Source: Gentiana macrophylla
Taxonomy: Eukaryota > Streptophyta > Magnoliopsida > Gentianales > Gentianaceae
NCBI GenBank assembly: GCA_026214975.1
Contig: JAOBSW010001145.1
Coordinates: 1-64,000 of the forward strand
Reading direction: 5' to 3'
Length of the DNA stretch: 64,000 nucleotides
A program made the translations under genes and the position numbers. Below are positions 17,527-62,786 of the stretch, one piece after another (the first letter of the stretch is position 1; the number at the start of each line of letters is the position of its first letter). The notes beneath the pieces are model-generated. The model did no database searches and had not been told where the DNA came from. It saw only the letters and a program-made list of their open reading frames with translations.

Positions 17527-17619
17527 AAACCGAACCAAAATCAGGTGGTTGAAACCTAAAAACTATGAATTAAAGCCTAAGAAAAGAAAAAGAAATAAAA
17601 TTAGTTAAGACAGGGGAAC

Positions 17620-34558: not shown

Positions 34559-34916
34559 GTGGTTTTTAAGGGTGAATTTACACGATTTATGACGCTATAT
34601 TTTATAAATATTTCCCCTATATTTGTATAAATTTGCATAAGAAACGAGTGTTTAATGGAAATATTGAGTAAATGATATTTTAGAAGAGTCAATCGCAAAA
34701 TAGGTTGATTTATGTGTTTTAATTGTGATTTTATGATTATTTGGACATTATTACATTTTGCGATGTTTTTATGTGTTATAGATACATTTTCAAGGCTCAA
34801 ATGATGATCAGAAAGAGATAAGAGTCGAAATATATGATGATAAAAGAGATAATGAAGGAATTGACAAGAAGAAAAGAGATAGAGATCAAGAAATCGAAAT
34901 TCAATCATATTGGTGG

Positions 34917-35141
34917 CGTCGAATCCCGCCCAGTGGGCGGGCGTCGATGCGATGGGACGAGCGTCCGGTTGAGAAAGTTGATTCAGGAAGTTTGGACGCT
35001 GAGGTGGACGCTAGAAGGACGGGCGTCTGATCCAGCTCCGCCCGACTCGAAGAAATTTACACAAGCTGGACGGGCGTTCACCCATTCCAGACGGGCGTCC
35101 AGCCGCCGCCATGCTAAAATCGACCTAGTTTTCTATATATA
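34917..35141 (+). promoter_or_regulatory. LTR promoter of E (5' LTR): palindromic-word array plus TATA box
   Basis: Array at 34917-35105 (words such as ggacgagcgtccgg, ggacgggcgtctg, agacgggcgtcca; the first units are corrupted compared with the 3' LTR), then TATATATA at 35134-35141 and AGCTGCGGTTTTCTCC, conserved in all LTRs of the family. Confidence 0.65.
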
Positions 35142-35685
35142 GCTGCGGTTTTCTCCACAATATGATCATATATTCGGACCCTAAACCCTAGGGGCGGTTA
35201 AGCTGCGTTTTTCCTTAGTTTACAAACAGTTTTTACTTAAATACTTTTATGCACTTTTATTCAAAACAATTCAAGTTTCAAAGAGGATGCTAAGAGGCTA
35301 GACCTCCATTGAACGAGCGTTGTGAAGTCGTCCGATTCAACAATTCAGTTCCTTTCGTGATTACTTTGTGAGTTTTAATACAAGTTGTTTCTTTTATCAT
35401 GTTATTAATTATTTATGCAATATCATATCGAAAGATGTTTGCTTTGTTGATCGTTTGTTTGATGAAAATCATGTTAAACGCTAGATCACCATGATAAAAG
35501 AATAGTTATTTGATCTATATAACGAGAGTTAATAGGTTAGATTTCTAGATTAAAAACGTTAAAGTTTACATCTTTGGTTAGAAGAAGCGTTAATCTTAGA
35601 TCGAAAGATAGAGATTAATAGATGAACTATCTAAGAATTTAGGGTTCGTACTTTAGATGAGATGAATCACAACTTGGTTAGAAAT

Positions 35686-37081: not shown

Positions 37082-37083
37082 AT

Positions 37084-37096
37084 TGGTATCGAGCGG
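37084..37096 (+). other. Primer binding site (initiator Met tRNA type), element G
   Basis: TGGTATCGAGCGG two bases after the LTR end, close to the copia consensus TGGTATCAGAGC. Confidence 0.8.
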
Positions 37097-38657
37097 TGTT
37101 CCTAGTATCGTAACTGTTGAGATCAAATTTACAGTAACAAGGAGATCACATATTTTCAAAGTAGTTTTCAAATCTGAGTTTTTCATTCATTGTCATTTAT
37201 ATCTTCAATTGCCTTGATGGATTCCTCAAACTTCTTGTCAAAAGTACTGTTTTCAATGTTAATAATTTTGATGAATATAAAATAAGAATGTTATCTCATC
37301 TTGCAAAGAACTCATGAGGAGATCTTTGGATGTAATCAACGACGGCCCAATCATGATCACTACTTGTGGTAGGCACAGGAGCGAGATCAAGGAAAGGAGA
37401 TAAACAAACCCAAGAAAGATTGGACCAAAGATGATGGGAGAAGAGCAAACCTAGAATTTGTAGCAAAAGATATGATCTTAAAGACTACAAGCAAAGAACA
37501 TGTTCATGAGAATAAAGGATTGCAAAACAAACAAAGGAGATGTGGGACAAGTGGCACTAATCAATGAAGGATCTCAAGCAAATCAAAGAAAATAAACTAT
37601 CTCATTTGCAAAAGCGAAGTTTGAAAATTTCAAGATGAAGGCGGTGAATCCATTGATCGGATGGACAACATATTCTCAAGCATCATCGATGAATCGCAAT
37701 GTGACTTGGTCACACATATCCCCAAAAAGAAGTATGCTTGAAGATCTTGAGAGGACTACCTGAAAGATGGAAGATCATAACATCACTAATCAGAGGAACA
37801 ACAAATCTTGCAAGCACTGACACTCTGACACTGATGTCCCAATTAAAAGCTCATGAATTCGAATTGAATGGCGAAGATGGTGCTCCGGCAGAGACACACA
37901 AAATCACCGCATTATTGCACCCTCAAACAAAGTAACTTTCTTGAATGCATCAAACAAAGAGACACAAGAACTAAAAGAGCAGGTAGCTTTATTAGTTAAA
38001 CGTTTTGTGAGTTTAAAAAGAAGCCATTCAAAGGAAATTCATCATCAAACAAAAAAAGTCAAGCTCAACCAGAGACATGAAGAAGAAAGATGATGAATAC
38101 AGATGCTTCAATCGCAACAAGAAAGGTCACTTCAAGGTGATTGTCCCGAAGAAAATGACAAAGATGATGAAAAGAAGAAATACAAAGCATCACGAAAAGA
38201 AAAGGAGCAAGAAGGCACTTAAGGCGAGTAATCCAAAGAGTGAAAAGCATGAAGAATCATCCGACAATGACTCAGATGATAGTGATGAAGAAGACAGTTC
38301 AGAAAATGAAAAAGCATGCCTATGTCTCATGACCAAAGAATTGGATGAAGATAAAAGTGATAGCTCAGATAATCGAGGAAACAAGCCTATGTTTAATGGC
38401 TAAAGAATCGATGAAAGCGAGGTAACATCTAGTTCACATTCTTCATCTAATGCATCCACATCTAACACCGCACAATCCTCTAGTCTTCCATTAGATACAG
38501 CAGACCTAGTCCAAAATCTCATGACTAAATTTGATGAAATTGAAAAGAATCATGAAATTCTAGAAAAGGAATGCAAGGATCTAAGGAAAGAGAATAAGAG
38601 GTTAAAGAAAGAACTGGATAAAGCAAAAGCTGAATTAACTAGTAAGAGACCTACTTA
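37097..38657 (+). pseudogene. gag: Gag of element G (broken)
   Basis: The region encodes a copia-type gag in several frames. KILRGLPERWKIITSLI with LTLMSQLKAHE is at 37738-37935. A degenerate zinc knuckle (CFNRNKKGHF, with the second Cys replaced) lies near 38100. An acidic Ser/Asp/Glu stretch (SSDNDSDDSDEEDSSE) is at about 38260-38310, and a coiled coil rich in Lys/Glu/Leu is at about 38520-38657. Coiled coil after the knuckle is usual for SIRE gag. Several stops and shifts. Confidence 0.75.
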
Positions 38658-41600
38658 AATGATCAACAAAAAGCAGATGATCATACATCCGTTATTAATG
38701 AGATCGATTAAGGAAATCTCCTCACCGGTGAAGGTATCCTTTGCACCACTAAAGGCACCAACTTACAAACCCCCAAAAGGTTTGGATCAGATCCGGTCTT
38801 GGCTACAACAATCGGGATGAACGTAGGAATAATGGTCAACACAATTTAAATTGAGGACCACTAGTGGACCAAAATTTAGAAAGAGATGCACCATGTCTCC
38901 AACAGATCATCCTGTTCGGTGAAGTCAAAACCCAAAGCAGTAAGTGAAACGACAAACTAAATCCTCATTCCAGTCAATCAAGAACAAAAACCATCCGAAA
39001 AGAAAAGGAAGACTTTACCCCTTCATAGGATGATTGGAATGTTGCTCTCGCAAAATACAAGAAGAAACCATTCCACAAAATGCATCATGTGTTTAAGAAA
39101 ACCAACTGCATTTCTAGACACATGAAGCAAGAAAGGTTTCCTCTTGCATTTTGGAAAGTAAAGAAGGATGCAAATGCACCAAAAGGTGGAGAAAAGTATC
39201 GAATACCTTGGTAAAAATACTAGAAGCTATTTCGCCATGCCTTATACATATGAAGTTGATGACTTCAATTATCCAAAAGAAGACCTTTTGGATACACCCT
39301 TGGTATGGGAGGCATGATTGCTATACAGTATGGACCCAAACAAGTGTTGGGTACCTAAACTTAATTAAACTGTTTTGTAGGATGTCCGGTACATAGGCAA
39401 AGTGGATGTTCCAGACACATGACAGAAACAAGAGATGGCTCACTGACTTCAAAGCTTTTGATGGACCCAAAGTCACATTTGGAGGTAAAGAAAACCCTGG
39501 CAAAATTAAGGGGGAAGGCACAATAATCAAGAACAATCTAAAGATTCGAGAATGTGGCATATGTCAAGGGACTTAACTTTAATCGATGAGCATCGGTCAA
39601 TTTTGTGACAAAGGCTACAATGTACATTTCAACAAAGAAGGATGCAAAGTGATTCACAGTCAAACCAACACAATAGTTCTTGCGAGGAAGAAGACAAGAC
39701 AACATGTATGTGGTGGATTGGAGAAACGACCAAAGGCGAAACATGTCTACTTGTCAAGAATAAACAATCAACACAATTTGGATTTGGCACAAAAGATTAA
39801 ATCACCTGAATTTCAAGACCATCAACAAACTATCAAGGAGCAAGTTAGTTGAAGGCCTGCCAGAGATCACATTCAAAAAGGAAAGTCTATGTGATAGATG
39901 TCAGAAAGGAAAACAAATAAAAAGCTCATTCAAGTCAAAGCCTCATCAATCTACAACAAGAGTTCTACATCTGCTACACATGGACCTGTTTGGACCAGTC
40001 ACACCAGTGAGTGTGAGTGGTAAGAAATACACTCTTGTAGTGGTGGATGACTTCTCAAAGTACACCTGGACCATCTTCATGAATAAGAAGAAAGAAACAC
40101 TCAAGAAGCTGCCAGATTTGTTGAGAAGACTCCAGAATGAGAAAGAACTAAAGATTATCAAGATCAGATCAGATAGAGGCACTGAATTTCTAAATGAAAT
40201 TATCAGAACCTATTGTGAAGAAAATGGAGTATTACATCAACTATCTGCAGCAGGAACTCCACAACAAAATGGTGTGTAGCAGAAAGAAGAAACAGAACCA
40301 TCAAGGAAGCAGTCAGGACAATGATAGCAGAAGCATGTTTACCAAAGAGATTTTGGGTGAAGCAACAAACACCAAGATGCCATACACAAAACAGATCAAT
40401 CATCAACAAACACCATGGAAAAACTCCATATGAAATATGGAATGGTAGAAAACCCAATATCTCATATTTTCATATGTTTGGATCAAAATGTTTTGTCTTA
40501 AACAGGAATCAACTGCATACCTTTGATGAGAAGGCTGATGAAGCAATCTTCATGGGATACTCAGACACCAAACAAAGCATTGAGTACTAAATAAAAGAAC
40601 TTTGGTGATTGAAGAATCAATACATGTGGTTTTGATGAACCAAACACAAATGGTGAAGATCTTCAAGATCAAGAAGAGAAAGCACCACAAAGAGAAATCT
40701 ATACAAATGCAACCATACCAACTACTATCACGAATCATCATTCGAAGATCAAGAGGAGCCACATACCAATACGGATGAAGCTCCTCAAGTTGAAGTTCAT
40801 GCTCGGCATGAAGGTATGGAAGCACCAAGTGAAGATCAACTTCAACCAGATCTAAATTGGCTAAGAGACCATCACGAAGAACAAGTCATTGGAGACATTC
40901 ACACGAGAGTCGAACAGAAGACAACCTGGAGCACATGCTAACTTGCTTTCTATCACAAGTGGAACCCAAGACCATAGATGATGCAATCCAAGATGCAGAT
41001 TGGATCATGACCATGCAAGAAGAACTAAATGAATTTGAAAGAAATGAAGTGCAGGGGAACTTGTTGACAGACCTGAAATGGCCAACATCATTGGTGCAAA
41101 ATGGGTATTCAGGAACAAGATGGATGAGCAAGGAACTGTTGTCAGAAACAAAGCAAGGCTAGTATGTTGTCAGAAACAAAGCAAGGCTAGTTGCAAAAGG
41201 CTATTCCCAAGCTGAAGGAATAGATTATGATGAAACTTTTGCTCCAGTAGCAAGATTGGAAGCAATCAGACTTTTTCTAGCATTTGCTGCACACAAAGAT
41301 TTCAAAGTCTATCAAATGGATGTAAAGATTGCATTCCTAAATGGACTCTTGGAAGAAGAAATTTATGTAGAACAACCTCCTGGATTTCAAATTAAAGGAA
41401 AAGAAGACAAAGTATACAAACTCAAGAAGGCCTCTATGGACTCAAACAGGCACCTAGAGCCTGGTATGAAAACTCATCCTGATTTACGATCAAGAATGGA
41501 TTCAACAAAGGAACTATTGACAAGACTCTATTTAAAGCTGGAGGAAGGAGCAAGCACATTGCTAGTGCAAATCTATGTTGATGATATAATCTTTGGATCG

Positions 41601-42523
41601 AGAGGATGAAAATGTGTGAGAAATTTACAAACCTCGATGAAGAGCAAATTTTAGGATGAGCATGATGGGAGAATTAAACTACTTCCTTGGCCTTCAAGTA
41701 AAGCAAATGAAGGATGGCATTTTCATTAGTCAAGCAAAGTATACAAGAGATTTGATACACAAGTATGGGATGGATACAAGTGGCACAAACAGACACACCA
41801 ATGTGTGCCAGAGTCATACTTGGAAAAGATGAAGGAGGAAAAGATGTTGATCAAAAATTGTATAGAGGAATTATTGGATCATTATTATACTTAATCGCAA
41901 AGCGGACTGACATAGCATTTGCGGTAGGAGTATGTGCAAGATTTCAAGCTCAACCAAAAGAATCACATCTTCTAGCGACTAAAAGGATAATCAAATACTT
42001 GAAAAACACTTTAAATGTTGGTATTTGGTATCCAAAAGATGGAGGATTTACATTGATATCATATTCGGACTCGACTATCTTTGGATGCAAAATAGATAGA
42101 AAAAGCACCTCTGGAACTTGCCAAATGCTAGGAACCGGACTAGTCTCTTGGTTCAATAAAAGCAAAACTCCATATCTACATCAACACCAAGCGAGAATAC
42201 ATAGCGGCAGTAGGTAGTTGTTGTGCACAAATCTTGTGGATAAGACAACGACTAAGGGACTATGGAGTGTAAGAGAAAACAATTCCAATCATGTGTGATA
42301 ACACAAGTGCAATATCTATTACGAGAAAATCCGATGATTGCACTCAAGAACAAAGCACATTGATGTAAGACATCATTTTATCGAGAGACCATGTTGAAAA
42401 GGGGATGTCATCCTAAAACACATACCCACTGAAGATCAATTGGCTGACATCTTCACTAAACCACTCAGTTATGAAAGATTCAGCAAGCTAAGAACTGAGT
42501 TAGGAATGATTGAAATTGAATAA
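38658..42523 (+). pseudogene. pol: Pol of element G (integrase, reverse transcriptase, RNase H; broken)
   Basis: Recognisable blocks: GAG-pre-integrase near 39720-39850; integrase core 39970-40279 (HMDLFGPVTPVSVSGKKYTLVVVDDFS, RSDRGTEFLNE, GTPQQNGV) and its C-terminal part 40321-40590 (FHMFGSKCFVLN); RT 41187-41609 ([44 protein letters not shown]); RNase H 41765-42217 (YRGIIGSLLYL, DRKSTSGTCQML). The end is near DIFTKPLSYERFSKL, stop at 42521-42523. The protease is not clearly readable. A short direct duplication (tgttgtcagaaacaaagc, near 41138 and 41165) adds to the damage. Confidence 0.85.
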
Positions 42524-42693
42524 GTATCAAAAAGCGGCTAACTGGAGTATCGGCTAAGTGACTTCATTAATCGGTACGACCTTTACCGTTAGGAGAGATG
42601 CAAAGCAAGTAAGGCACGGCATCAAGTGAAGGTAACTTAAGCGATTGTTAGGAGCAAGTGAAATGGAGCAACTAAGTAAAGAACCTATAGAAC

Positions 42694-42843
42694 GGCTAAG
42701 TGGCCAGCGAAGGCACTTCACCGAAATAAAGACTTGGACAAATTAAGAGTGTGAACAAAATCAATTCTGGCTAAGTGGCCAGCGAAGGCACTTCACCGAA
42801 ATAAAGACTTGGACAAATTAAGAGTGTGAACAAAATCAATTCT
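42694..42843 (+). repeat. 75-base tandem duplication
   Basis: Two adjacent copies (42694-42768 and 42769-42843), effectively identical, beginning ggctaagtggccagcg. The identity suggests a recent event. Confidence 0.9.
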
Positions 42844-43092
42844 GATTACACGTGGAGAATAAGGAAATTATGGAGGATTATTCTATACACACGTGGCGAT
42901 CAACTTATGATCATGGAGGTAATTATATTATTTTTCGAATTATAAACTCCTCGATTCCCGGGCTCTATCATTACTTGCCTCAAACCACACCTCCACTCCA
43001 CTCGAATATCGCGATTTTTATACGCAAAATCACGCCATTATGCCACAAATCCTTCCATATTCAAAACCACGTTCACACTACCCAAATCACAC

Positions 43093-43100
43093 TATAAAAA
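43093..43100 (+). promoter_or_regulatory. TATA box of possible internal promoter, element G
   Basis: TATAAAAA in the context CACTATAAAAACAAG, 115 bases before the ATG at 43215. The interval is a pyrimidine-rich leader and the start context is aaaATGGC, close to the plant optimum. Confidence 0.5.
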
Positions 43101-43214
43101 CAAGACTTAGAGATTTTCAGAAATCTTTACGCTTTCTTGTCAATTACAAACTCTACTCTTGATTCTTTCTATTGCAAATGAAATTCATTTCCAAAACTTC
43201 TCTCCTCTTCAAAA

Positions 43215-46200
43215 ATGGCATCATCCTCCACAAACACCCAAGCTGGATATGAAAAATCGATTGCCACGGGATCCTTCTTTCAAGAAGAACACTACTTGAA
43301 ACTGTGTGGAAATGACGAAGATGCCAAACGATTAGCAGCAGGTTGCAAAATCCTAAAGCTATCAACCTTCCTCAATCCTCCTATCACCGAGGTTTGCTAT
43401 GAAAGTCCGATTTCTTCGAAATGCACAACAATCGTGCTGGGCTCCTGCTTTGAAGAAGGTGATGAGTGGGAAGAAGACAAGATTGTAGCATCTGTCAACG
43501 GAAAGGAAGTGACGATTACGTAAAAGGTAATTCACAAACATCTCATACTTTCCAATAAAGGTCAAGCAAAAGTGACACTTGTATCACAAAACTTGGATGA
43601 TTTCGGGCAACAATTGCCAAAGCGGCAAACCAGGATCCACAAAGGTCAAGCTGTTTGAGATACGCTTTAAAGAAACCATTCAATGAGTTCGATGCCCTAA
43701 TTGGCAAGACTATTGAAGGAAAATTGGGAGCAAATAATGCAATGACGGAAATCAGAATGAGGCTGATGGGAATCATCTACAATAATCTGCAATTCAACTG
43801 GGCAAAATACTTCTTTCTAAGACTCAAAGAGCAAATCCAAGGTGAAGAAAAAGCAGCAAACAAGGGGACAAAAGAAGGGAAGACAAAGAAAGGACAATTC
43901 TGGGTGAAAAAGTCATATGGTATTCAGTTACACTATTTGTTGCAATGTCTCAAAGTCCCCACAGTACAACTCCACAAACTGCATGAATCCAAAGTCATGT
44001 TTACTTATCTTAAACAACAACAGAAGGAAGGAGAAGGGAAGAGAAAGAAACCTACACGCAGCACCACCGGTCAAAGAAAGAAACAAAAGATTCAGCGAAG
44101 TCTTGAAAAGACCGACTTTGCACAATTGATTGATGAAGGAGAAGAGGAAGAAGGTTCGACCATCAAAGCGAAGCAAAGCAAGAAGAAGAAATCGGTTGGG
44201 ATCAACAAACATCCTAATAAAGAAAACACTTTGGAGAGGATGAGGAATCATCTCCGGAAGAAAGTCAGACAATTATTTGCAAACGATATAGATGATCGAA
44301 TTGCGAGAATATCTTGAGTGGAAGGAAGGTGATTCCAAACAACGACTTCAAGACTCGAGATCACATGCTTCTTTGAAGAAGCATGGCTATTTGACTTTCT
44401 CGGGAATCACAACTCGGTAGGTGTACTTGATGAATCACCTACATGGGAAATGGTTGATGCGACCAAGGAAAAGCGCCCTGCATCTACAGGAGACAAAGTG
44501 ATGACTCAGAAGATGATGGGGATGATCATGATGATGGTGATGATCATGATGACAATGATGATAATGATCATGATCAGGATGATAATGATGATCTTGATCA
44601 AGACAGAGAAGAGAACTCTCCTGCACCAGATGCAATTGATGACACCACTCTTCTCCGTACATTTATGAAAACACAAGCCTCCGGCAAGTCTACATCTCCA
44701 GCAAAGACATCCACTCAACCGCTGTCTGTCAGCGTTCCAGCCAACAGCAAACACATTGTGGACACTGGCTCAGCTGCTGCCACTCCAGTCAAGACAACCC
44801 CCGGAATAGAAATAGGGGAAACAGCAGCTCAAGCCACACCAGCATACACATCTACCCAAATACTTGAAGATCTAGATGTACATGCAGATGTCACTCAACA
44901 TCCAGACAAGGGACAACAGACAGATCCAGAACCAGCTGAAACAAGGCAGAAAATCTCTCAGCTGAACACTGGCATTACAAATGAAACTTTTGAGAAAGCG
45001 GCAGACTTGCTAGCTGAAGAATTGGAACAGCAAGCAATGTATCTCAGATCTATGACTTCAGCTTTTAATGACAAAAGCTCCTCCATTGAAAACAAGTTTC
45101 AGGCCATTGCAGAATACATTGATGCACAAAATATTGTTGTTCAACAACAAGGAGATCTGATGAAGCAACTCAACATCAATATTACCAACAGTCTTGCAGG
45201 CCTCAGGCAACACATCTCCCAAGAAAAGCGAATCACCGGGCGGTAGCTTTTGGGACTAGACTTGGAGTGTCAATGAGAAATTGAATGATCACAACAAAAG
45301 ATTCACTTCTATTGAATCAAAACTTGACTCTCTGATTGGAACGGTAGAGGCCACCAATAGCATCCTACTCCAGCAAAGGGATGATGCTGCCAAAAAGGGG
45401 GAAAACCAGGATAAGCCTGAAGGATCAACAATCAGACCCCCAAACTTCATTGAAGAACAACTGAGGGCAAGGGACAGAGAAATAAGAATCTGAAATGAAG
45501 CGTAAGAAACAAAGAAAGAAGTCGGTCGAGAAGAAAGGAAAAGGCCCTAAAGGAACCCTGCATTGGATTTCCTCACCCTATGCAAAGAAAAGATGATGAT
45601 AGAGATAGGTCCGGCAGACAGCAAACCAGGATAAGCCTGAAGGATCAACAATCATACCCCCAAACGTCACTGAAGAACAACTGAGGGCAAGGGACAGAGA
45701 AATAAGAATCGAAATGAAAGCGGAAGAAACGACAAGAAGAAGCGGTCGAGAAGAAAGGAAAAGGCCCAAAGGAACCTGCATTGGATTTCCTCACCCTATG
45801 CAAAGAAGAGATGATGATAGAGATAGCAGTCCGGCAGACAAAGAAGAGGATCACCGGTCAACACGGACTCAAAGCACGGAGGAAAAACCGCAGAGAGGTA
45901 GCAGCGGCTCCGGATATCTTGAGAGCACAAGACTTACACTGGTCACCAAAGCAAAGCGAGAATATGATGAGATGTCTTTGGACCATGTAAGAGAATTTTT
46001 CAGAGTACAAGAAGGACTCTATCCTCACTCCTCACAAGATGAAGCCTGGGGTGATTGGCTAAGCTACCAGGATGAAAGGATGAGAACCGATATGGCCAAA
46101 CTTTACAATGAAGTCAAAAGAGAATTTGCACTTCTCAAACAAGCCAACAATAAACCAAGCTCAGCCATACCACTATCTCGCAAAAGGACGGAAGACTTGC

Positions 46201-46467
46201 CGGTGAAAAGCAAGAGGAATTCAAATATATGGCAAAATTCTTCAACCCTATGGGAGAATGGAAAACAGGAGCAAAGTGGAGTCTCTACAAAAGCCTCAAG
46301 TTTGCAGATTCACATATTCTCGAGGCTAGGAAAGACTTGAAAAATATTTTGGAGAACCTAAGGCAAATGAGACCATGCTCGATTTTCATGCAGACTCTTT
46401 GCCAAAAGAGTTTTTTGAGGTGTATCTGAATACACTGACTTTGGCTTATGGAAGTGGAAGTTTTTAA
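43215..46467 (+). pseudogene. Third (env-like position) ORF of SIRE-type element G, broken
   Basis: Coding blocks in successive frames: 43215-43523 (MASSSTNTQ..., EEHYLKLCGNDEDAKRL), 43655-44317 (FNEFDALIGKTIEGKL, then Lys-rich), an Asp/His-rich run at 44500-44620 leading into 44665-45246 (a Thr/Ser/Pro-rich then coiled-coil-like segment), 45281-45493, 45714-46340 (WGDWLSYQDERMRTDMAK), ending near 46467. I see no transmembrane segment or signal peptide, so 'env-like' means position only. It shares no visible similarity with the env-like ORF of the Athila copies. Frame breaks and an internal 220-base duplication show that it is dead. Confidence 0.65.
45403..45842 (+). repeat. 220-base tandem duplication in third ORF of G
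   Basis: Units start at 45403 and 45623 (aaaccaggataagcctgaag). They differ by scattered substitutions and single-base indels. The second unit keeps the reading frame; the first has stops, so duplication preceded decay of one unit. Confidence 0.88.
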
Positions 46468-46676
46468 ATTATTTGGAAAGACATGGAAGAGGTTCAAACT
46501 ACGAAATTCAAGAGGTACAAGGCTGAATTGAGCAAAATGTAGTTTGTAACACTTGAATAAAGTCTTAGAAATTATTACCCTTCGATGGATGAATAAAATT
46601 GTTGAACTTTTTATACATTGTGTATTATGAAAATCTTGATTACTTATGTTCAGGCTTATGAGGGTTTTGGCATCAT

Positions 46677-46692
46677 CAAAAAAAGGGGAAAT
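46677..46692 (+). other. Polypurine tract, element G
   Basis: AAAAAAAGGGGAAA run directly before the 3' LTR start at 46693. Confidence 0.85.
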
Positions 46693-48110
46693 TGTTAGGA
46701 ACATGTTATTATGTTTTGATGATGGCCATACTAATTTGTTATAGCAAGCTGAAATAAGTTAGAATTCTCTGTATAAGTCTTTACTTAAGGTCTGACAAGT
46801 TGTATAAGTTAAGTCAGACAAGTATTGTACTAGTTGGTAGGATGGCAAAGCAAAGACAGATATTCGGCAGAGTGAAGCCAGCCAAGCACCAGCAGAGAAG
46901 TAATGAAGACTTTATGGCCTGACTTATAACCAAGGAAGTCTGTGATGATCTTGGATAAGTCTATGTTTTAACTGATAAAACTCAAATGTTTAAATATGGT
47001 GTACACTGGTCTCACCCAAATCAAGGATCGGTGAAGTTCAAAGACTCTCCAAATACTAGAACAAAGAAGGAGACAGTGAATCGGCTGAGTAAACTGACTT
47101 TCGGCAAAGAGAAAACAAAACAGCGAAGAAGAAGTGACGGCTAAGTCAGTAGGCTCACTCGACCGTTCTAGAAACGGCGAAGAGACACCTACAAGGCCAG
47201 AATTGATATACGATGAAGATTCAGAAGATCATGCATTAAATGCTCAAATCATTAAAGGATCAATCAAGGACGGATTATCTGCTATACGTTTGAAGAAAGA
47301 ATCCGATCACTGAAATTAAGTAGAATACAATTAAGGGGGAATCAAGAATAAAATCAAGGATTATTCCCTCATTAATATAGCCAACGGACGGAATTTCAAA
47401 AACGAAGGTATTCAAGGCTATAAATAGAAGGCATTGTGTAAAAAAAAAAACAACAATCAAGAAAGAAAAATCTAGCAGAAACTCTGTCAATTTGAAAAAG
47501 CCTTCTCTCTGAACTTACAAGGATACATCTAGTGATCAACTCAGACTTCAAGGCTACAAAGTCATACTCAGAACTGAGGATTGATCAAGCAAGTGTGTGA
47601 ATCACATTCACATCAAATGAAAGCAATCGAATCGAGAGGCAACTCGAGAAGGAGTTGAATCTGTGATAGTTGTTGAAGGATCTTGATCTTAAGGAACAGC
47701 AGAAGGAAGACTAAATCACTGAAGCTGCTGCAGTCAAGGAGTGATAGTTTTGTAGATTGTGAAGCTTGGGAAGCCAAGGACAATCATACTATTGTATCTG
47801 TGAAAACAATAGTGAATTCCTCCAATCATCACAGGAGAAGAGTGGATTAGGGATTACACCACCTGAACCACTATAAGCCTTGTGTCAATTTAATTTACGC
47901 AATTTACTTTACAGCATTCATTTAATTTGCATACATCATAATTTGCATCTGTGACTGTTTAAACCGATTTGAAAACAATATAGTAAGAAGGGACTTATCC
48001 GCTGCCCAAAAGCTTTTAACTAGAAGAAGAAAAGTTTTTGAAACTCCACTATAGTCATTCACCCCCCCCCCTCCCTCTGACTATAGTTTCACCCTTCTCT
48101 GGGACCAACA
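46693..48110 (+). repeat. 3' LTR of element G
   Basis: 1,418 bases, TGTTAGGAACATG...GGGACCAACA, followed by the target duplication gaaat. Confidence 0.92.
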
Positions 48111-48532
48111 GAAATCACGAAGAAGTCTGAATTGGAATTGAATGTTGATAGGATAGGTGGATCGATTGCTCGTTTGCTCGTTATAACTTGATCAAATCCC
48201 TAAAACTTGAATTGTTTAGCTTAGTAGTCTGTTATTGCATATCTAGTTTAGTTTAGTTTAAATTGGTTCGAAACATATCTTTCCTGGCTTTAGATCATAT
48301 CTTCTGTCCAGTTTTCACGTTTTAGTTAAAGTTTGTTTTCGTTTCTGTTTTGTTTTATTCGCTGTTTAGATCAGTTTCGTGACATAGTTTAGGTTAGACA
48401 ACAACTAGAAATCCCAATCGTTTAGTTCCCCGTAAGATCGACCCGGCATTAACCACTATTACTACGATCCTTATACTTGAGGTTAACCGGATTATTACTT
48501 GTTTTGTGTTAATAAAATCCGTGACAAGTTTT

Positions 48533-49013: not shown

Positions 49014-49144
49014 TTTATTCTTTTCCTCAATAATTCTGTTTCTTTTCCTTCTTTCCCTTTCTTTTCTTTAGGCTTTTAATTTTTAGTTTAGGCTTTTAAT
49101 TTCTTAGTTTTTAGGCTTCTTTTTACTTGTTTTTGTTCCGGTTT

Positions 49145-52100
49145 ATGCAAACTCGGAGTCGAAAGGGACCGTTATTATACACCCCTGACCCCGAGCGAAC
49201 CGTAGTCCGGCCAAACAGGCAGATTTTCCGTTCTGCGGTTCTGGCAGACAGAGCCGAGCAAGATCTCGAAGACCAATTAGCAAAGGAAATCATTGATTTT
49301 GTGATAATGGCCGCTAATAATAGACGTACGTTGGCAGACTATGCCATGCCAGGCGAAGTCAAAGTCAACCCGGCTATTGTTATTCCAGCCATTACCACAC
49401 AAACCTTTGAGCTAAAGCTAGGACTTATCCAGATGATGCAGCATGCATCAATTTTTCATGTCTACCAATCAGAGAATCCGCATACCCACTTACACACATT
49501 CTTAGAGATATGCGGTACTACACGCATCCAAGGAGTAAGTGAGGATGCTATCAAGCTAAAACTTTTTCCATTTTCGTTGAAAGGAGAGGCTAAAGAGTGG
49601 TACACCTCTCTTCCCTCTGAATCCATCTCCACCTGGGCCGAACTCGAAAAGGAGTTCTTGAGTCAATATTTTCCACCTTCAAAGACGGCCCAGTGTTTGA
49701 ATGAAATATTCACTTTCTATCAGAAAGAGAATGAATCTTTCTTCGAATGTTGGAAGAGATTCAAGTCTCTTCTTAGAAAGTGCCCCCACCATGGCTTGCC
49801 ACTGGAAAGGCAAGTCAATACATTCTTCAGTGGATTGAACGAGCTCACCAAAGGCATGGTCAATAGTTCTTCTGGTGGGGCATTTCTGAAGAAAACACCT
49901 GAAGAGGGATGGGCATTGTTTGAGGACATTGCAAAATACAACTACGCCCCCTCTTATCAAGCAATCCAAGCACCTCCTCCTCCCAAGGTTGAGGAAGTTA
50001 ACGTGCAAAGTTTGATCGCCATGCTGCAGAAACAGATGGCAACATCTCAAGTTCCAAATCCGATAAATCAAACTTCTTATTTTCCACAGAACCCTCAGGT
50101 TCTGTACTATGAAAATTGCTGTCAGACTGGCCATATGAATGGCCAGTGTCAATTTAATCCCCATGCACCCTATCAAGTGAATGCTGTTCATGATTATGGA
50201 CAGTACAATCAAGTCACATGTCAGAATTGTGACGAGGTGGGGCACACATCTAAATTCTGTCCTATGAACGGACAGAATGCGGAAGTGAATGCATTCTATG
50301 GCCAGAACAATCCAAGGTTCAATCAGTTTCCTGGCCAGAATAATTTCCAAAACCAAGGATTTAATCCATCTTCAAGTTTTAATCCTAATTCGAATTTTAG
50401 TTCGAATCAGAATTTCAATAGAAACCCTGGGTTTAATCAGAACCAAAACTCGAATTTTTCCAATCCTATGCAAAAATTCAATCAGAATTGTCCTTCCAAT
50501 TCAAATTCTCAATTTCAAAGTCGGCCCAGCCAACCATATGCTCAAAACTTCCAAAACTCTCAAGGCCCCTCCCAATCTACCTGTTAGGAACATTTTATTG
50601 TGTTTTGATGATGGCCATACTAGCTGTTATAGCAAGCCTGAAATAAGTTAGAATTCTCTGTATAGGTCTTTACTTAGAGTCTGACAAGTTGTATAAGTTA
50701 AGTCAGACAAGTATTGTACCAGTTGGTAGGACGGCAAAGGCAAGAACAGATATTCGGCTAAGTGAAGCCAGCCAAGCACCAGCAGAGAAGTAATGAAGAC
50801 ATTATGGTCTGACTTATAACCAAGGAAGTCTGTGATGACCTTGGATAAGTCTAAGTTATGTTTTAAGTGATAAAACTCAATGTTCAAATATGGTGTACAC
50901 TGGTCTCACCCAAATCAAGGATCAGTGAAGTTCAAAGACTCTCCAAATATTAGAACAAAGAAAGAAACAGTGAATCGGCTGAGTAAACTGACTTTCGGCA
51001 AAGAGAAAACAAAACACCGAAGAAGAAGTGACGGCTAAGTCAGTAGGCTCACTCGACCGTTTTAGAAACGGCGAAGGGACACTTACAAGGTCAGATTTGA
51101 TATACGATGAAGATTCAGAAGATCATGCATTAAATGCTCAAATCATTAAAGGATCAATCAAGGACGGATTATCTGCTATATGTTTGAAGAAAGAATCCGA
51201 TCACTGAAATTAAGGAGAATACAATTAAGGGGGAATCAAGAATAAAATCAAAGATTATTCCCTCATTAATATAGCCAACGGACGGAATTTCAAAAACGAA
51301 GGTATTCAAGGCTATAAATAGAAGGCATTGATAGAAAAAGAAAATAACGATTAAGAAAGAAAAATCTAGCAGAAACTCTGTCAATTTGAAAAAGCCTTCT
51401 CTCTGAACTTACAAGGATACATCTAGTGATCAACTCAGATTTCAAAGCTACAAAGTCATACTCAGAACTGAGATTGATCAAGCAAGTGTGTGGATCACAT
51501 TCACATCAAACTGAAGCAACTGAATCAGAGGCAATCTGAGAAGGAGTTGAATCTGTGATAGCTGTTGAAGGATCTTGATCTTAAGGAACAAAGACAAAGG
51601 AAGATGAATCATCAAGTCAGCATTGCGAGTCAAGGAGTGATAGTCTTGTAGATTGTGAAGCTTGGGAAGCCAAGGACAATCATACTATTGTATCTGTGAA
51701 AAACAATAGTGAATTCCTCCAATCATCACATGAGAAGAGTGGATTAAGGGATTACACCACCCTGAACCACTATAAGCCTTGTGTCAATTTAATTTCTGCA
51801 GTTTACTTTACAGCATTCATTTAATTTGCCTATATCATAGCTTATATCTGTGACTGTCTACATTGATTTGAAAACAACATAGTAAGAAGGGACTTATCCG
51901 CTGCCCAAAAGCTTTTAAATATAAGAAAAGTTTTTGAAACTCCACTATAGTCATTCCCCCCCTCTGACTATAGTTTCACCCTTCTCTGGGACCAACACTA
52001 CCAATCTAGAAGCTAAATTGGAGGAGCAAAGTAGGTCAATGAAGAATCTAGAGAGACAAATTGGGCAACTGGCTGAACAGTTAGCTTCTAGACCCCCAGG

Positions 52101-52281
52101 GCAGCTGCCCAGTTTCACCGAGAAGAATCCAATGGGTGGTCAAGTTGCTCAAGCTGACTTGAACAAAGGCCCATGTACTGACCTCGTGCCATCAATTCAA
52201 TATGGTAAAGAGGAGGCCAGTGCAATGAATCTGAGAAGTGGTACTCAAGTTAGTGGTCCTTCCCATCAGGGAAACCACTAG
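49145..52281 (+). pseudogene. gag: Gag of element E, interrupted only by a solo LTR
   Basis: The start is the ATG of MQTRSRKGPLLYTPD at 49145, shared with B and C. The frame is open to 50581, is split by the solo LTR (50582-51997 plus one target duplication), and resumes in frame at 52003 to the stop TAG at 52279-52281. Without the insert it is about 571 codons. Parts: Arg-rich N-terminus; capsid-like core (FELKLGLIQMMQHAS, FLEICGTTRIQGVSEDAIK, LEKEFLSQYFPPSKT); a first zinc knuckle with its leading Cys changed to Tyr (YENCCQTGHMNGQC); an intact knuckle CQNCDEVGHTSKFC; a long Asn/Phe/Gln-rich low-complexity region; and a short Leu/Glu-rich helix (NLEAKLEEQSRSMKN). The stop lies inside the frameshift signal to pol. 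Confidence 0.88.
50582..51997 (+). mobile_element. Solo LTR of the G copia family in gag of E
   Basis: 1,416 bases, TGTTAGGAACATT...GGGACCAACA, flanked by the perfect target duplication ctacc (50577-50581, 51998-52002). Removing the LTR and one copy restores the gag frame. It results from recombination between the two LTRs of an inserted element. Confidence 0.93.
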
Positions 52282-52311
52282 CCCCTCCTGCCATTGATAA
52301 GGCAGGAGGGG
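52269..52311 (+). promoter_or_regulatory. -1 ribosomal frameshift signal at gag-pol junction, element E
   Basis: The slippery heptamer GGGAAAC at 52269-52275 is in phase (G GGA AAC in the gag frame). A six-base spacer CACTAG ends with the gag stop. A perfect 11-pair stem follows, with arms CCCCTCCTGCC (52282-52292) and GGCAGGAGGGG (52301-52311) around the loop ATTGATAA. After slippage the codons become GGG AAA CCA CTA and enter the open pol frame. Confidence 0.85.
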
Positions 52312-55300
52312 AAGCTGAGCACCTACACTCCCCTCAACTGCAAGAAAAGACTCAGGTGGCTGATCCCCTGAGAGGTGAAGAAGTTGGAGATCCTCAAGTG
52401 GCTGATCCCTTGAGAACTGAAAAAGCAAGCGAAAGTCAGGAGGCTGATCCCCTGACTACAAAAAAATCTGAAAAAGCTGTTCGATGGAAAGATCTGGAAG
52501 ACAAAGCTGTAAGTGCATCCTCAAAGAAAGCCTTTTCTGAGAGTGACCTTAAGAAGCTTCCATTTCCACCGAGAAAGAGCAACATTCCCTTGATTGAGAA
52601 CAAAAAGTACGAAAAGGTTCTGAACCTGTTGAAAAATACTCAGGTAAATCTTCCATTATCAGATGTCTTGGTTGAGATGCCTAAGTATACAAAATTCATC
52701 AAGGATGTTGTATCTTCGAAAAAGAAGTTAGCAGGCATGGAAAGGCAAATTGGTGAGGATTGCTCCATGATTAATTATGAAGACTTACCAATTAAAAGAG
52801 GTGACCCTGGCAAGTTCGTACTTACAGTATTAATGGGAGGTCTAGTCTTCCCTAATTCTTTGTGTGATCTAGGTGCCTCTATAAGTCTTATGCCAATGTC
52901 TGTATGCAAACAGCTCGGTTTACAAAGCCTTCTAGAACCCACTACTATGAGTTTACAATTCGCTGATAGATCTTCTAAGAAAGCTTCAGGGATCCTGAAA
53001 GACGTTTTGGTTCAGATTGATAGATTTACCTTTCCAGTCGATTGGTATGTTTTAGATATGGAGAAAGATGAAAACGTCCCCCTGATTCTTGGAAGACCTT
53101 TCTTATCTACAGCTAGAGCCCTTATCGATTGCGATGGTGGGCAAGTGACTATCCGAGTTGGTGACCAAGAGGTGAGTTACAATGTCTTAAAGTCCATTCA
53201 AGTACCCTCTGGCCCTCCAACCGGCTTTTCCATTGATTATATGACGGATGATTTCACCGATTATATGGATAAGCAAGTCATGGCTGTAGAAGCTGAATAT
53301 GAGCGATTGGTTGATAATCTAAATACTCATGGTGTGGTAAATCTAGATCAATTAGCAGCTAATTTTGAGGAAGAATTGTTGGAAGGAGAAGCTTTGGCAG
53401 TGGGACCACAGAGTAAACTCAGTGATATTGAGTTGAAAAGTGGAGATCTCAAGTCAAGTTTAGAAGACCCCCCTGCTGATTTGGTGCTGAAGCCGTTGCC
53501 TAAACATCTTAAGTATGTGTTTCTAAGAGAAGGTGACAAGCTTCCATTGATTATATCTGCCAAGCTGTCTCGGTTAGAGGAGATGAAATTGATCAATGTC
53601 TTGAAACGTAATGAAAAAGCTTTTGGTTGGCAAGTAGGAGATATCCGAGGAATATCTCCTGACATCTGCATGCACAAGATCAAGACGAGTGAGGGTGCAA
53701 AATGTGTACGACAGCCCCAGAGGAGGCTCAACCCTCATAAGCAAGAAGTCGTTAAAAAGGAAATCATCAAACTTCTGGACATGGGAATCATTTATGCCAT
53801 CGCGGATAGTGAATGGGTTTCCTCGACTCAAGTAGTTCCCAAGAAAGGTGGAATTACGATTGAGAAGAATGAGAAGGGAGAGGAAATAGCATTGAGACTT
53901 GTCACTGGTTACAGAGTCTGCATCGACTATCGAAAGCTCAATGAGGTAACCATGAAAGATCACTTTCCCCTTCCATTCATTGAACAGATGCTTGAGCGTC
54001 TGGAGGGACACGCATTCTACTGTTTCCTAGATGGATACTCAGGATACTTCCAGATACCCATTGATCCAGCTGACCAAGAAAAGACCACATTCACCTGCCC
54101 TTATGGTACATTCGCTTACAGGCGAATGCCATTTGGTCTCTACAATGCCCCAGCTACATTTCAGCGATGTATGCTAGCTATCTTTGACGGGCTTGTAGAA
54201 AAGTGTATGGAGATTTTTATGGACGATTTTTCGGTCTTTGGTCAATCTTTTGATGATTGCCTTGACAATCTTGATCAAGTGTTATCCAGATGTGTGGAAA
54301 AGAACCTAGTACTTAATTGGGAAAAATGCCATTTCATGGTAGATGAGGGAATAGTTCTTGGCCACAAAATATCCGCCAAAGGTATAGAAGTTGACAGGGC
54401 AAAAGTGGAAGCTATCGAGAAGATGAGCTATCCCAAGAATGTGCACGAAATCAGAGGTTTTCTTGGACACGTCGGTTTCTATAGAAGATTCATTCAAGAC
54501 TTCTCCAAGATAGCCAAGCCCCTGTCCACTTTACTAAAGAAAGACGTTGAGTTCAATTTTGATGAGAGCTGCAAGCAAGCGTTTGAGGAGCTTAAGGATC
54601 GTTTAATATCTGCTCCAATTCTTATTTTGCCCGACTGGAACCTACCTTTTGAGCTTATGTGCGACGCATCAAACTATGCTGTTGGTGCTGTTCTAGGGCA
54701 AAAGATCAAAGGGAAGTTCCAGCCTATCTATTACGCCAGTCACACTTTGAACCCCTCTCAAGTTAACTATACCACTACTGAAAAGGAACTATTGGCCGTA
54801 GTTTTTGCTATGGACAAGTTCCGTAGTTACTTGTTAGGAGCTCAAGTGATTGTGTGGACTGATCACGCTGCTTTGCGGTATCTGATGACAAAGAAAGAGG
54901 CTAAACCGCGCCTACTGCGTTGGATACTGACCCTACAAGAGTTTGACGTTCAAATTAAGGACAAAAAGGGCAGTGAAAACGTAGTGGCTGATCACGTTTC
55001 TAGAATGTTAAGTGAGGAAAAGGATGATCCAGATGATATAGATCTCTACTTTCCTCTAGAGAACATTATGTTGATAGACGGTTGTCCTCCTGATGTTCCA
55101 TGGTATTCTTCCATTGTAAATTACCTTCATGCCCGATATCTCGATCCAGAAATGTCTTATCAGGAGAAGAAAAAGTTCTTCTCTGATTTGAAATATTTAG
55201 TTTGGGATGAACCTTATCTTTTTAAGATCTGTAAAGATGGTTTGCTTAGGAGATGTGTTCCAGAATCAGAGCAACGTGATATTATTGAGCAATGCCACAG

Positions 55301-56702
55301 TGGACCCACTGGAGGTCACTTTGGTCCGTGGAAAACCGTTGCTAAGATCTTCCAATCCGGTTTTTATTGGCCTACGATCTTTAAGGACACAGAAGCTTTC
55401 TGTAAAGCTTGTGATAGGTGCCAAAAGACCGGTACTCTGACAAGGAGTTTTGACATGCCTTTGAAACCCATCCTCGAATGCGAAGTCTTTGATGTATGGG
55501 GTATCGATTTTATGGGACCATTCCCATCATCTTGCGGTAATAAATACATCTTAGTCTGCGTGGACTATGTGTCTAAATGGGTGGAGGCTCAAGCCACTCC
55601 TCACAATGATCATAAAACGGTCATGAAATTTCTAAAGAGGAATATCTTCGTGAGGTTTGGATGTCCACGTTCCTTGATTAGTGATGAAGGGACGCATTTC
55701 TGCAACCGACCCCTAGAGAAAGTGCTTGAAAAGTATGGTGTTCGTCATAAGACAGGTACACCATATCATCTGATGACTAGTGGTCAGGTTGAAAGGAGCA
55801 ACCAAAGCATCAAGAAAATCCTGGAGAAGACGGTGCTTGATCATAGAAAGGATCGGAGTTTGAAGTTGGATGATGTACTCTGGGCTTACAGAACTGCCTA
55901 TAAAACCCCTATGGGTACATCTCCATATCAAATGGTCTATGGTAAACCATGTCATCTGCCTGTCGAATTAGAGCATAGAGCTTATTGGGCTACAAAGTTT
56001 CTGAACTTTGATTCCCAATCTTGTGGAAAACATCGACTGCAGCAGTTACATGAGCTAGACGAATTCAGACTCCAAGCCTATGAAAGTGCCAGGATTAGTA
56101 AAGATAAGATGAAGCTACTCCACGATGCTAAGATTAAGAAGAGAGAATTTCAAGTCGGCGAACAAGTTCTTATATACAATTCTAGGTTACATTTGTTTCC
56201 TGGGAAGTTGAGGACACGTTGGTCCGGTCCCTTTGAAATTCTCCAAATTATTCATGGAGGCGTTCTAGAACTGCGAGGTTATGGTGACCAGCCGTTTCGA
56301 GTAAATGGTCAAAGGTGTAAGCACTACATTGGTGAATCTAAAGAAAAGCCGTTGACTGTTCGTTTTCTTGATATCCTCGGGTGTGGTGCTACAACAGTCG
56401 AAGAATTCGACGAGTTTTCACCCGACCTGTTTTCAGAGGATGACGGTAGAGGTCGATCTGAAGAAGTTCTAGCGGGTAGTTGGGATATGGAAGAGTACTG
56501 GAGGGAGCGTCAACTGAAACGTCATCAGGAGAATCAAAAGAGGAAGAAGTCAGTCATGGGGAAGTTTAAGCGTGTTTGGAAAGCTGTTAAGGATTTCACC
56601 CCATGTGTGAGATCTTTGTTTCGCAGCCCACACTCATCGATCGAGCTTACACGAGGTAGTGGTCGCGAAAAGTCAAATGGCCTGATCCAGGCTGAGCTTT
56701 AA
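52275..56702 (+). CDS. pol: Pol polyprotein (protease, reverse transcriptase, RNase H, integrase), element E
   Basis: An open frame of about 1,475 codons entered by -1 frameshift. No ATG-initiated start precedes the domains; the first in-frame GTG at 52356 is unlikely to be used. Positions are counted from 52356. First come three VADPLR-type repeats. The retropepsin-like protease has DLGAS near residue 171 and LGRPFLSTA near 247. The RT has [17 protein letters not shown] and the catalytic FMDD near 621. RNase H starts [11 protein letters not shown] near 768. The integrase has an HHCC zinc region near 978-1025 and D, D, E near 1050, 1109 and 1145. [19 protein letters not shown] and an acidic/basic tail follow, ending [18 protein letters not shown] is a hallmark of the Athila lineage. 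All catalytic residues appear present. Confidence 0.92.
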
Positions 56703-58289: not shown

Positions 58290-58295
58290 GTTCAG

Positions 58296-59770
58296 ATGGT
58301 GCATAAACAGGTTCAGAAACGGCATGGTAAGGGTGTAGCTAAGGAACCTGCCAAGAGGAGTAAGGGTGTGGACCCCACCTTAGTCAATCCAACCCAAGGT
58401 ATTCGTATTGGTGAGCGTCAAAATCCTCCTAGAGGTCAACCTAGAGTTCCTTTACAGGATGAGCCTGAATCTGGGTCTGAAACTGATGATGAGCCATTAG
58501 TGAGGATACAGACTAGGGTGGCGGAAGCTCGGGGTGAGCAAGACAATGAGCCTGAGGGAGATGAGCCGGTTAGACAGAGAGTGAGACCCGCTATCCCTAT
58601 TCCCTTTGCTCGTAGATTTATCAATCCTAAGGCGATGGAGGTCTATAATAAGCATTATCTGACTCGGACGATGTTGATCGAGCGAGCCATTTTAGACGCG
58701 AAGGTGGACCCCGCATTTGTGAAGATGTTAACGGATAGGAAGTGGGAAGCCCTGATGAAAACCCCTAGGACTCCAGTCAATGCTACACTAGTTCGTGAGT
58801 TTTATGCGAACTGCTCGGAGACGGATTTGAGAACTGGGATGGTCACTGTTCGGGGGGATAAGGTGCCGTTTACACCGGCAATTATCAATGGGAAATACGG
58901 TCTGGATCCTTTTGAGGGGTTGGACTACAAGGAGGCGATAAAGGCCAAACAAGATGCCGGTGAGGATCCGTTGGAGGAGTTACGGTTGTTGGTGTGCCCT
59001 GAGGTGCCTTGGACACTTAGACCGGGTGGGGCTAGAAAGGAATTAGTGACCACGAGTTGGACGGAAGATTGGAAGGTCCAATGTTGGTTTATTCAGAACC
59101 GTTTGTTACCTAAGAACAACCTGACTCACTTCCACATTGGTGACCTTGGGATGCTTTATGCCTTGACCTTCAAGCTCAATGTTGATGTGGGACAAGCTTT
59201 ATACGACGAGATATCGATTATCAGAAAGTTTATACGAGATGCTTGATTGTCCCGCACCTTATACACAATTTGTGCTCTGATGCTCAAGTTCCCGAGTACA
59301 AGACCGATCACAAACCGAAGAATCCTAGGTTCTTGCAGAGGGAGAAAGAGAAATCTTAGGGTCAGACTGAGACTGAGGCTGAGGTAGCACGTGAGCCTGG
59401 TTCCTCTTCAGCACCACCTCGAGCATCCTCCCTTCCTACTTTATCTCCCGCCGTCAAGATGCGGTTAAGCATGGCCAATAGTTTCCGGGAATGGATGGGT
59501 GATATTCGGGATACACAGAACAACATTTTGTCGATTCTTCAATGTATCTGCGAGGACCGGCAGCCGAGGGACGTGAGAATCTTCACACCAAGCCTGAGGG
59601 AGTATGTTTTCCGGGTTGACATCGAGCAGGCCATTGCAGACGTTCTAGATGAGTCTGAGTCATCTTCAGATGAGGAGCAGCCTGACTCGGTAGAGAGGAC
59701 TACGGCACCGCCTTCTGGACCCTCCTCTGATCCTCCGGCTGATGATTCTGCGGCGCCGAGCCAACCTTGA
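58296..59770 (+). pseudogene. Env-like third ORF, element E (frameshift and stop)
   Basis: Homologous to the intact 489-codon ORF of B (6618-8087). It starts MVHKQVQKRHGKG. The core from ARRFINPKAMEVYNK to DVGQALYDE is open to about 59215, then an indel shifts the frame (stop at 59244-59246). The restored frame has a further TAG at 59357-59359, then is open through MRLSMANSFREW to the acidic, Ser-rich tail and the stop at 59768-59770. No membrane-spanning stretch is visible. Confidence 0.82.
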
Positions 59771-61210: not shown

Positions 61211-61248
61211 TTTTGCTCGGGACGAGCAAAAGCTAAGTGTGTGGGAGT
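61211..61248 (+). other. Hairpin and polypurine tract, element E
   Basis: A perfect nine-pair hairpin TTTTGCTCG-gga-CGAGCAAAA (61211-61231), then GTGTGTGGGAG before the LTR start at 61249. The tract is slightly weaker than in B, whose sequence is GTGTGGGGGAA. Confidence 0.8.
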
Positions 61249-62786
61249 TGTTAAGGGTGAATTTACACGATTTATGACGCTATATTTTATGAATATTTCC
61301 CCCATATTTGTATAAATTTGCATAAGAAATGAGTGTTTAATGGAAATATTGAGTAAATGATATTTTAGAAGAGTCAATCGCAAAATAGGTTGATTTATGT
61401 GTTTTAATTGTGATTTTATGATTATTTGGACATTATTACATTTTGCGATGTTTTTATGTGTTATAGATACATTTTCAAGGCTCAAATGATGATCAAAAAG
61501 AGATAAGAGTCGAAATATATGATGATAAAAGAGATAATGAAGGAATTGACAAGAAGAAAAGAGATAGAGATCAAGAAATCGAAATTCAATCATATTGGAC
61601 TGGCGTCCAGAATCCCCGTCCAGTGGACGGGCGTCTGATGCAGTGGACGAGCGTCCGGTTGAGGAAAGTTGATTCAGGAAGTTTGGACGCTGAGGTGGAC
61701 GCTAGAAGGACGGGCGTCTGATCCAGCTCGGCCCGACTCGAAGAAATTTACACAAGCTGGACGGGCGTTCACCCATTCCAGACGGGCGTCCAGCCGCCGC
61801 CATGCTGAAACCGACCTAGTTTTCTATATATAGCTGCGGTTTTCTCCACAATATGATCATATATTCGGACCCTAAACCCTAGGGGCGGTTAAGCTGCGTT
61901 TTTCCTTAGTTTACAAACAGTTTTTACTTAAATACTTTTATGCACTTTTATTCAAAACAATTCAAGTTTCAAAGAGGATGCTAAGAGTCTAGACCTCCAT
62001 TGAACGAGCGTTGTGAAGCCGTCCGATTCAACAATTCAGTTCCTTTCATGATTACTTTGTGAGTTTTAATACAAGTTGTTTCTTTTATCATGTTATTAAT
62101 TATTTATGCAATGTCATATCGAAAGATGTTTGCTTTGTTGATCGTTTGTTTGATGAAAATCATGTTAAACGCTAGATCACCATGATAAAAGAATAGTTAT
62201 TTGATCTATATAACGAGAGTTAATAGGTTAGATTTCTAGATTAAAAACGTTAAAGTTTACATCTTTGGTTAGAAGAAGCGTTAATCTTAGATCGAAAGAT
62301 AGAGATTAATAGATGAACTATCTAAGAAATTAGGGTTCTTACTTTAGATGAGATGAATCACAACTTGGTTAGAAATCACGAAGAAGTCTGAATTGGAATT
62401 GAATGTTGATAGGATAGGTGGATCGATTGCTCGTTTGCTCGTTATAACTTGATCAAATCCCTAAAACTTGAATTGTTTAGCTTAGTAGTCTGTTATTGCA
62501 TATCTAGTTTAGTTTAGTTTAAATTGGTTCGAACATATCTTTCCTAGCTTTAGATCATATCTTCTGTCCAGTTTTCACGTTTTAGTTAAAGTTTGTTTTC
62601 GTTTCTGTTTTGTTTTATTCGCTGTTTAGATCAGTTTCGTGACATAGTTTAGGTTAGACAACAACTAGAAATCCCAATCGTTTAGTTTCCCGTAAGATCG
62701 ACCCGGCATTAACCACTATTACTACGATCCTTATACTTGAGGTTAACCGGATTATTACTTGTTTTGTGTTAATAAAATCCGTGACA
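61249..62786 (+). repeat. 3' LTR of element E
   Basis: 1,538 bases, TGTTAAGGG...CCGTGACA, followed by the duplication gtggt. It provides the empty site for copia element G (ggttagaaatcacgaag, near 62367-62383). Confidence 0.93.
61597..61832 (+). promoter_or_regulatory. LTR promoter of E (3' LTR): palindromic-word array plus TATA box
   Basis: Array 61597-61795 with words such as ggactggcgtcca, ggacgggcgtctg, ggacgagcgtccgg, ggacgggcgttca and agacgggcgtcca; TATATATA at 61825-61832. Confidence 0.65.

Follow-up and report, generated by a model that had tools for sequence, protein, structure and literature searches.

Does a plant LTR retrotransposon join gag and pol by a -1 programmed ribosomal frameshift? 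In retroviruses such a frameshift sets the ratio of Gag to Pol. A compact and conserved -1 signal would provide a directly testable plant case of how LTR elements produce an excess of Gag over Pol. According to the sections consulted, the vast majority of plant LTR elements display one gag-pol frame (PMC2829016), and most element groups possess one open reading frame (ORF) and some two (PMC6317226). In a few plant lineages the frames are joined by splicing (PMC12786077, PMC6317226), and a survey of 2003, in the part consulted, gave separate plant gag and pol frames in the +1 direction only (PMC5009743). No earlier -1 gag-pol case in plants was found in the literature searched, mostly without subscription journals, and priority is not certain.

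The locus lies in a stretch of 64,000 nucleotides of Gentiana macrophylla (contig JAOBSW010001145.1), hereafter the window. A preliminary description of this DNA had assigned to one of its retrotransposons, element E, a classical -1 frameshift signal between gag and pol. As judged from sequence comparison, the junction very probably works as such a signal in the Ty3-type (Athila-like) family of element E, in which we infer the slip itself; if true, this would be the first known -1 gag-pol frameshift among plant LTR retrotransposons. The kind of signal is already known, and what is new is that it sits in a plant Ty3 lineage and probably originated from a one-frame ancestor.

Sampling of copies

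From the host genome of 1.79 Gb, 68 loci were taken by three junction-similarity queries, which yielded 3,447, 3,639 and 3,800 first-look candidates and from which 8, 30 and 30 loci were taken out of 40 scored matches each. The window's own elements E, B and A are among them. As the loci were chosen by junction similarity, identity close to the junction is inflated, and the group labels A, B and E denote the query by which a locus was fetched, not a position in a tree. In the alignment used for divergence by codon phase, columns filled in less than 60% of rows were removed. Five copies of further subfamilies (L120-L124), picked for looking different, were found by an exact 20-mer reaching from the heptamer to stem base 7.

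For the count of stem pairs, 39 of 100 listed places of the 20-mer were judged, comprising 19 out of 20 that had been chosen to be spread out and another 20 chosen for TAA; one locus of the first set that had been cut too short (L093) was replaced by a longer fetch (L119). Seven further loci were picked from 40, two of which were left out of the stem table as they do not carry the exact heptamer, spacer and stop; L075 possesses the heptamer with one spacer change, and L076 has lost one heptamer base.

Structure of element E

Element E extends over approximately 34562-62786 (Table 1) and is fairly young, since its LTR parts are 98.1% (1102/1123 bases) and 99.5% (414/416) identical. A nested element, one ORF of which carries the copia-type pair gag_pre-integrs and rve, interrupts the 5' LTR. 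Downstream of the LTR follows TGGCGCCGTTGC, a putative primer-binding site that may match tRNA-Asp. For Diaspora and Calypso, tRNA-Asp was named as primer (PMC1142308).

Table 1. Positions of the features of element E and of the corresponding features of elements A and B in the window.
Feature	Position	Strand	Basis and remarks
5' LTR of element E, first part, split by nested element	34562..35685	+	repeat comparison
Nested copia-type element in 5' LTR of E	35686..48110		LTRs 96.3% identical, TSD gaaat
5' LTR of element E, second part, then primer-binding-like TGGCGCCGTTGC	48110..48526	+	repeat comparison
gag, upstream part (PF03732; zinc knuckle match under Pfam's cut-off)	49115..50581	+	ORF list, Pfam matches
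Solo LTR, copia-type, inserted in gag, TSD ctacc (5-bp)	50582..51997	+	repeat comparison; ~1.4 kb
gag, last part, to stop	51998..52281	+	frame reading
pol frame (protease, RT, RNase H, integrase), -1 relative to gag	52254..56702	+	ORF list, Pfam matches; first ATG 52677
Candidate slippery heptamer GGGAAAC, read G GGA AAC in gag phase	52269..52275	+	direct read; intact in 65/68 copies
Six-base spacer CACTAG, last three bases the gag stop	52276..52281	+	direct read; stop TAG/TAA in 67/68 copies
Predicted stimulatory hairpin, 11 pairs, 8-base loop	52282..52311	+	folding; arm-versus-loop conservation
Extra ORF past pol (PF20167, putative plant transposon protein), env-like position	58290..59246	+	ORF list, Pfam match
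3' LTR of element E	61247..62786	+	repeat comparison
Same junction signal in element A (TAG)	14127..14146	-	
Same junction signal in element B (TAA; 7 uninterrupted stem pairs)	25164..25183	-	
ORF past pol of element A, PF20167 match, env-like position	6618-8093	-	Pfam match

The pol frame is open over 1,482 codons from stop to stop. Reverse transcriptase, RNase H and integrase were matched, together with three protease matches under the Pfam cut-offs, and the domain order protease, RT, RNase H, integrase is that of the Athila clade. In keeping with that clade, neither a chromodomain nor a second archaeal-type RNase H was found at E 0.01, the RNase H matches being confined to residues 770-897. 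In the ORFs past pol of E and A the Athila ORF-1 domain PF03078 is absent, and PF20167 is found instead; PF03078 is present in just 16% of Athila elements and hence not required (PMC6317226).

That gag and pol are joined in element E holds for the phases, which are correct, but gag of E itself is disrupted by a solo LTR. This insertion, of the same family as the nested copia-type element and 93.8% identical to it, leaves the two gag parts in different raw frames, with the raw upstream ORF (49115-50587) running slightly into it.

The gag-pol junction

The heptamer, the spacer with the gag stop and the 11-pair hairpin were all recovered where the preliminary description had placed them, the former two by direct reading and the hairpin by folding. 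The gag frame ends with the codons CAG GGA AAC CAC TAG, its stop occupying 52279-52281. The predicted hairpin consists of the arms CCCCTCCTGCC (52282-52292) and GGCAGGAGGGG (52301-52311), in which 11 of 11 pairs are perfect; for 52276-52330 the fold energy is -26 kcal/mol (z -4.35), a stability reached by none of 200 shuffles. Past the slip, the pol frame would contribute 1,475 sense codons. The preliminary description gave it no ATG start of its own; its first ATG is codon 142 at 52677, so that no start lies close to its beginning.

The pattern X XXY YYZ that is looked for in -1 signals occurs in zero frame inside the overlap at 52269-52275, the usual spacer of about 5-9 nt before a stable structure measures 6 nt, and the long downstream frame in -1 position, under selection as a protein, is pol. 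Bare GGGAAAC is not rare, with six occurrences in the window against 9.84 expected. Among 200,000 dinucleotide shuffles of 52254-52320, 0.86% had a slippery heptamer in phase within the overlap. In 0.003% this heptamer was accompanied by a perfect stem with 8 or more pairs at a distance of 4-9 nt, and no shuffle had such a stem with 11 or more pairs. A search of Rfam gave three weak matches only, far under the gathering scores.

In the proposed mechanism, most ribosomes would read CAG GGA AAC CAC, encounter the stop and release Gag. Some would be stalled by the hairpin six bases downstream with their tRNAs on GGA AAC, shift backwards by one base onto GGG AAA and go on with CCA into pol, and Gag would thereby be made in excess over Gag-Pol from a single RNA. 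Three parts of this scheme we infer, namely that plant ribosomes slip at GGGAAAC, the rate at which they would do so, and the role of the hairpin as stimulator.

Occurrence of the signal in the host genome

The preliminary description had presented the signal for element E. It is indeed present there, but it proved to be the property of a large family: the exact 20-mer GGGAAACCACTARCCCCTCC, spanning heptamer, spacer, stop and stem, occurs 1,730 times in the genome (902 + 828 per strand), the reversed control not at all. In the window, gag of A, B and E ends in MNLRSGTQ..GNH-stop throughout, and pol lies in the -1 frame in each; both additional copies show defects, gag of A being frame-shifted and gag of B possessing one extra stop close to its end. 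Element A appears nested in pol of element B (3532-22541, minus strand), and its LTRs are 97.6% identical.

Conservation is observed family-wide. The heptamer is intact in 65 of the 68 copies (60 by strict pattern and five rows outside it), and the gag stop is kept in 67, group A (30) and group E (8) having TAG and group B (29/30) TAA. The frame relation, taken from the spacing of the gag-end and first pol motifs, was measurable in 59 of 68 copies and not in nine; it is -1 in 47 of the 59, with a distance of exactly 335 bases in 43. The other 12 comprise nine with the third relation and three that are one-frame by length (L008, L018, L047); as these retain the gag stop, none is an open one-frame gag-pol. 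Intact relatives with one frame and without the heptamer, which the preliminary description had named as counterevidence, were found nowhere within the family. The last 60 gag codons are free of stops in 53 of 68 copies (0 and 2 in the other frames), and the first 60 pol codons in 62 (0/68 in either other frame). Retention of heptamer, stop and -1 relation across the family supports the classical -1 frameshift interpretation.

In the 39 judged copies with the exact 20-mer, the stem has 11 pairs in 27, 10 in 7 and fewer than 10 in 5; by eye, small indels displaced the stem in several of the latter.

Selection across the junction

Among the 68 copies, divergence between their three subfamilies over the 300 bases upstream of the signal is 0.316 at gag third positions versus 0.154 and 0.104 at the others, and from +182 to +1200 it is 0.325 at pol third positions versus 0.127 and 0.104. 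The excess at third positions is in gag phase before the signal and in pol phase after it, which shows coding constraint in both frames. Conservation of the heptamer is partly protein constraint, as its sites are coding in both frames. In the choice between TAG and TAA the stop is preserved although the change alters a pol residue.

For the hairpin, the three nearer subfamilies are less informative than L120-L124. Zero change at eight stem third positions has a P of 0.007 under the rate further downstream and of 0.21 under that of +60 to +182, a stretch that is slow among the nearer subfamilies (pol-third mean 0.108), so that a quiet stem in these alone is weak evidence. The constraint on the stem appears to be settled better by L120-L124, which are 74.8-85.1% identical to three reference copies past +43. 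In these, pol-third divergence is 0.019 at 0 to +45 and 0.31-0.39 from +45 to +1150, with 0.345-0.385 past +180. Both arms are fixed with a single exception, where U-A has become U-G and pairing is retained, whereas loop sites 25, 26, 27 and 30, the third base of the stop (site 12) and the first bases past the stem vary. Of the 15 stem sites outside the selecting 20-mer, 14 show a divergence of at most 0.06, compared with 51.7% of the sites in +45 to +420.

Across the 68 copies, none of the 11 pairs of this hairpin has changes in both partners; compensatory changes are missing because its sequence is nearly fixed, and the predicted structure accordingly rests on arm-versus-loop conservation and folding energy. 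A conserved RNA element of 180 bases, suggested by the three window subfamilies, was rejected, as L120-L124 do not support constraint past about +45.

Alternative explanations

At least one stop within 200 pol codons is found in 35 of the 68 copies, many of which are thus decayed, and one-frame relatives exist. Both facts would suit an old frame break that was amplified, in which copies multiply on Gag-Pol from other elements while their own pol stays unexpressed. This is nevertheless very unlikely, for the third-position excess in pol persists between subfamilies, so that pol was selected as a protein while separated from gag, and a dead joint would not hold the heptamer, the stop and both arms fixed while the loop and the neighbouring bases vary. 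Readthrough of the stop codon was rejected because it changes no frame; in 58 of 68 copies the gag frame runs 30 codons further to its next stop, which has the same position in all of these.

Gag and pol could also be joined if splicing removed a short intron containing the stop from some of the transcripts, as Neumann et al. 2019 reported for the related plant Ty3 clade Ogre (PMC6317226), and the codon-phase signal in +45 to +180 is weak between the three window subfamilies. Still less likely than a frame break, an intron makes no prediction of a fixed in-phase heptamer, a 6-base spacer and two fixed arms, and it is opposed by the pol frame, open over its first 60 codons in nearly all copies while the other frames are open in none. 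In L120-L124 divergence in +45 to +180 is 0.314 at pol third positions versus 0.175 at phase 0, yet 0.312 at phase 1, and this stretch is not decisive. Least probable is that pol has a start of its own, the ATG at 52677, used through reinitiation or through internal entry or bypass; one of the latter two was proposed for Sireviruses (PMC2829016). Such an ATG does precede the protease match in frame; however, the pol frame upstream of it is constrained as protein, third positions from +180 to +420 diverging by 0.38 versus 0.115 and 0.102 in L120-L124. Moreover, the methionine sits in an EQMP-type stretch that is internal to one-frame gag-pol of plant proteins (e.g. P0175, P0178) and hence need not be a start.

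Relatives and origin of the two-frame arrangement

An LRSG-type motif at the gag end is shared by the E family with Athila, Calypso and Diaspora. The 120 pol matches listed from a protein database with plants are 30-54% identical over the covered part, and in at least eight of them LRSG is followed by PFPQR within 150 residues in one protein; the remaining 112 are without one of these two strict motifs. Listed matches with a named source are plant proteins. L003 and L004, approximately 53% identical in pol, possess single frames of gag-pol length with 1,998 and 2,004 codons, and in L003 gag and pol were read within one protein. Both come from bacterial assemblies, which bear the names Geminicoccus harenae and Solirubrobacter sp., and are probably plant contamination.

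A gag protein from a metagenome contig of 1,509 bp (P0124), compared as protein only, is 62% identical over 228 aligned residues and ends in NQGNH. Among the 120 listed gag matches it is the only one ending in QGNH-stop, and a search with its gag end returned nothing but P0124 among 164 candidates. Other gag proteins that stop soon past LRSG end at scattered places and were not counted as further cases. Pol and P0124 were compared with viral contigs, and no relative was found there; a junction 19-mer matched two contigs in the viral collection.

Because the one-frame relatives L003 and L004 exist outside the family, the one-frame gag-pol looks ancestral and the two-frame arrangement derived, the latter being probably common to the family and to one relative from a metagenome, P0124. 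On balance we favour, with some reserve, the view that a Ty3/Athila-like lineage of plants gained a retrovirus-type -1 frameshift independently, starting from an ancestor with one gag-pol frame, and that it is shared by several subfamilies with at least 1,730 copies and by more than one plant. If the one-frame state is ancestral, the recoding signal would have newly evolved within a fused polyprotein, in the variable linker that separates gag from protease. The subfamilies of the E family offer a natural series in which the -1 signal can be tested.

Comparison with known systems

In form, the stimulator of HIV-1 or HTLV comes closer to the plain hairpin predicted in element E, while that of the polerovirus group is a compact pseudoknot. 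GGGAAAC was listed for SRV-1, MPMV and FIV, whose -1 sites share with element E the heptamer, a spacer of 6-7 (6 here) and a stable structure downstream, but are listed with predicted pseudoknots, in contrast to the plain 11-pair predicted hairpin described here (PMC3835772). The slip site reported for a plant polerovirus is likewise GGGAAAC; in this virus the P1-P2 frameshift takes place at the same heptamer on plant ribosomes, but in an RNA virus replicase with unrelated genes (PMC5592212). On mammalian ribosomes GGGAAAC is among the most shift-prone heptamers (PMC5009743).

With Athila, Calypso and Diaspora the Ty3-type pol is common, and the extra ORF past pol resembles Athila and Calypso, Diaspora being without it in the description consulted; Diaspora displays one gag-pol frame of 1,892 codons, as opposed to two frames and a stop in the E family (PMC1142308). 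In Sireviruses, too, gag and pol occupy different frames and the joint carries a conserved inverted repeat, but these elements are of Ty1/copia type with pol in the +1 frame, and no -1 heptamer appears in the consulted text (PMC2829016).

Further repeats in the window

Three palindromes of 22 nt with the loop CUGAU (52351-52372, 52393-52414 and 52435-52456, plus strand) follow each other at 42 nt spacing in the Gag-Pol linker. When the junction hairpin and these palindromes were examined together in the 68 copies, changes on both sides were found in four pairs, all within the three palindromes, and were equalled in 0 of 500 shuffles. The palindromes could represent a second RNA element or a QVADPL peptide repeat. 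Inside the nested copia-type element, 45403-45840 contains a tandem pair of approximately 220 bp, 92.8% identical.
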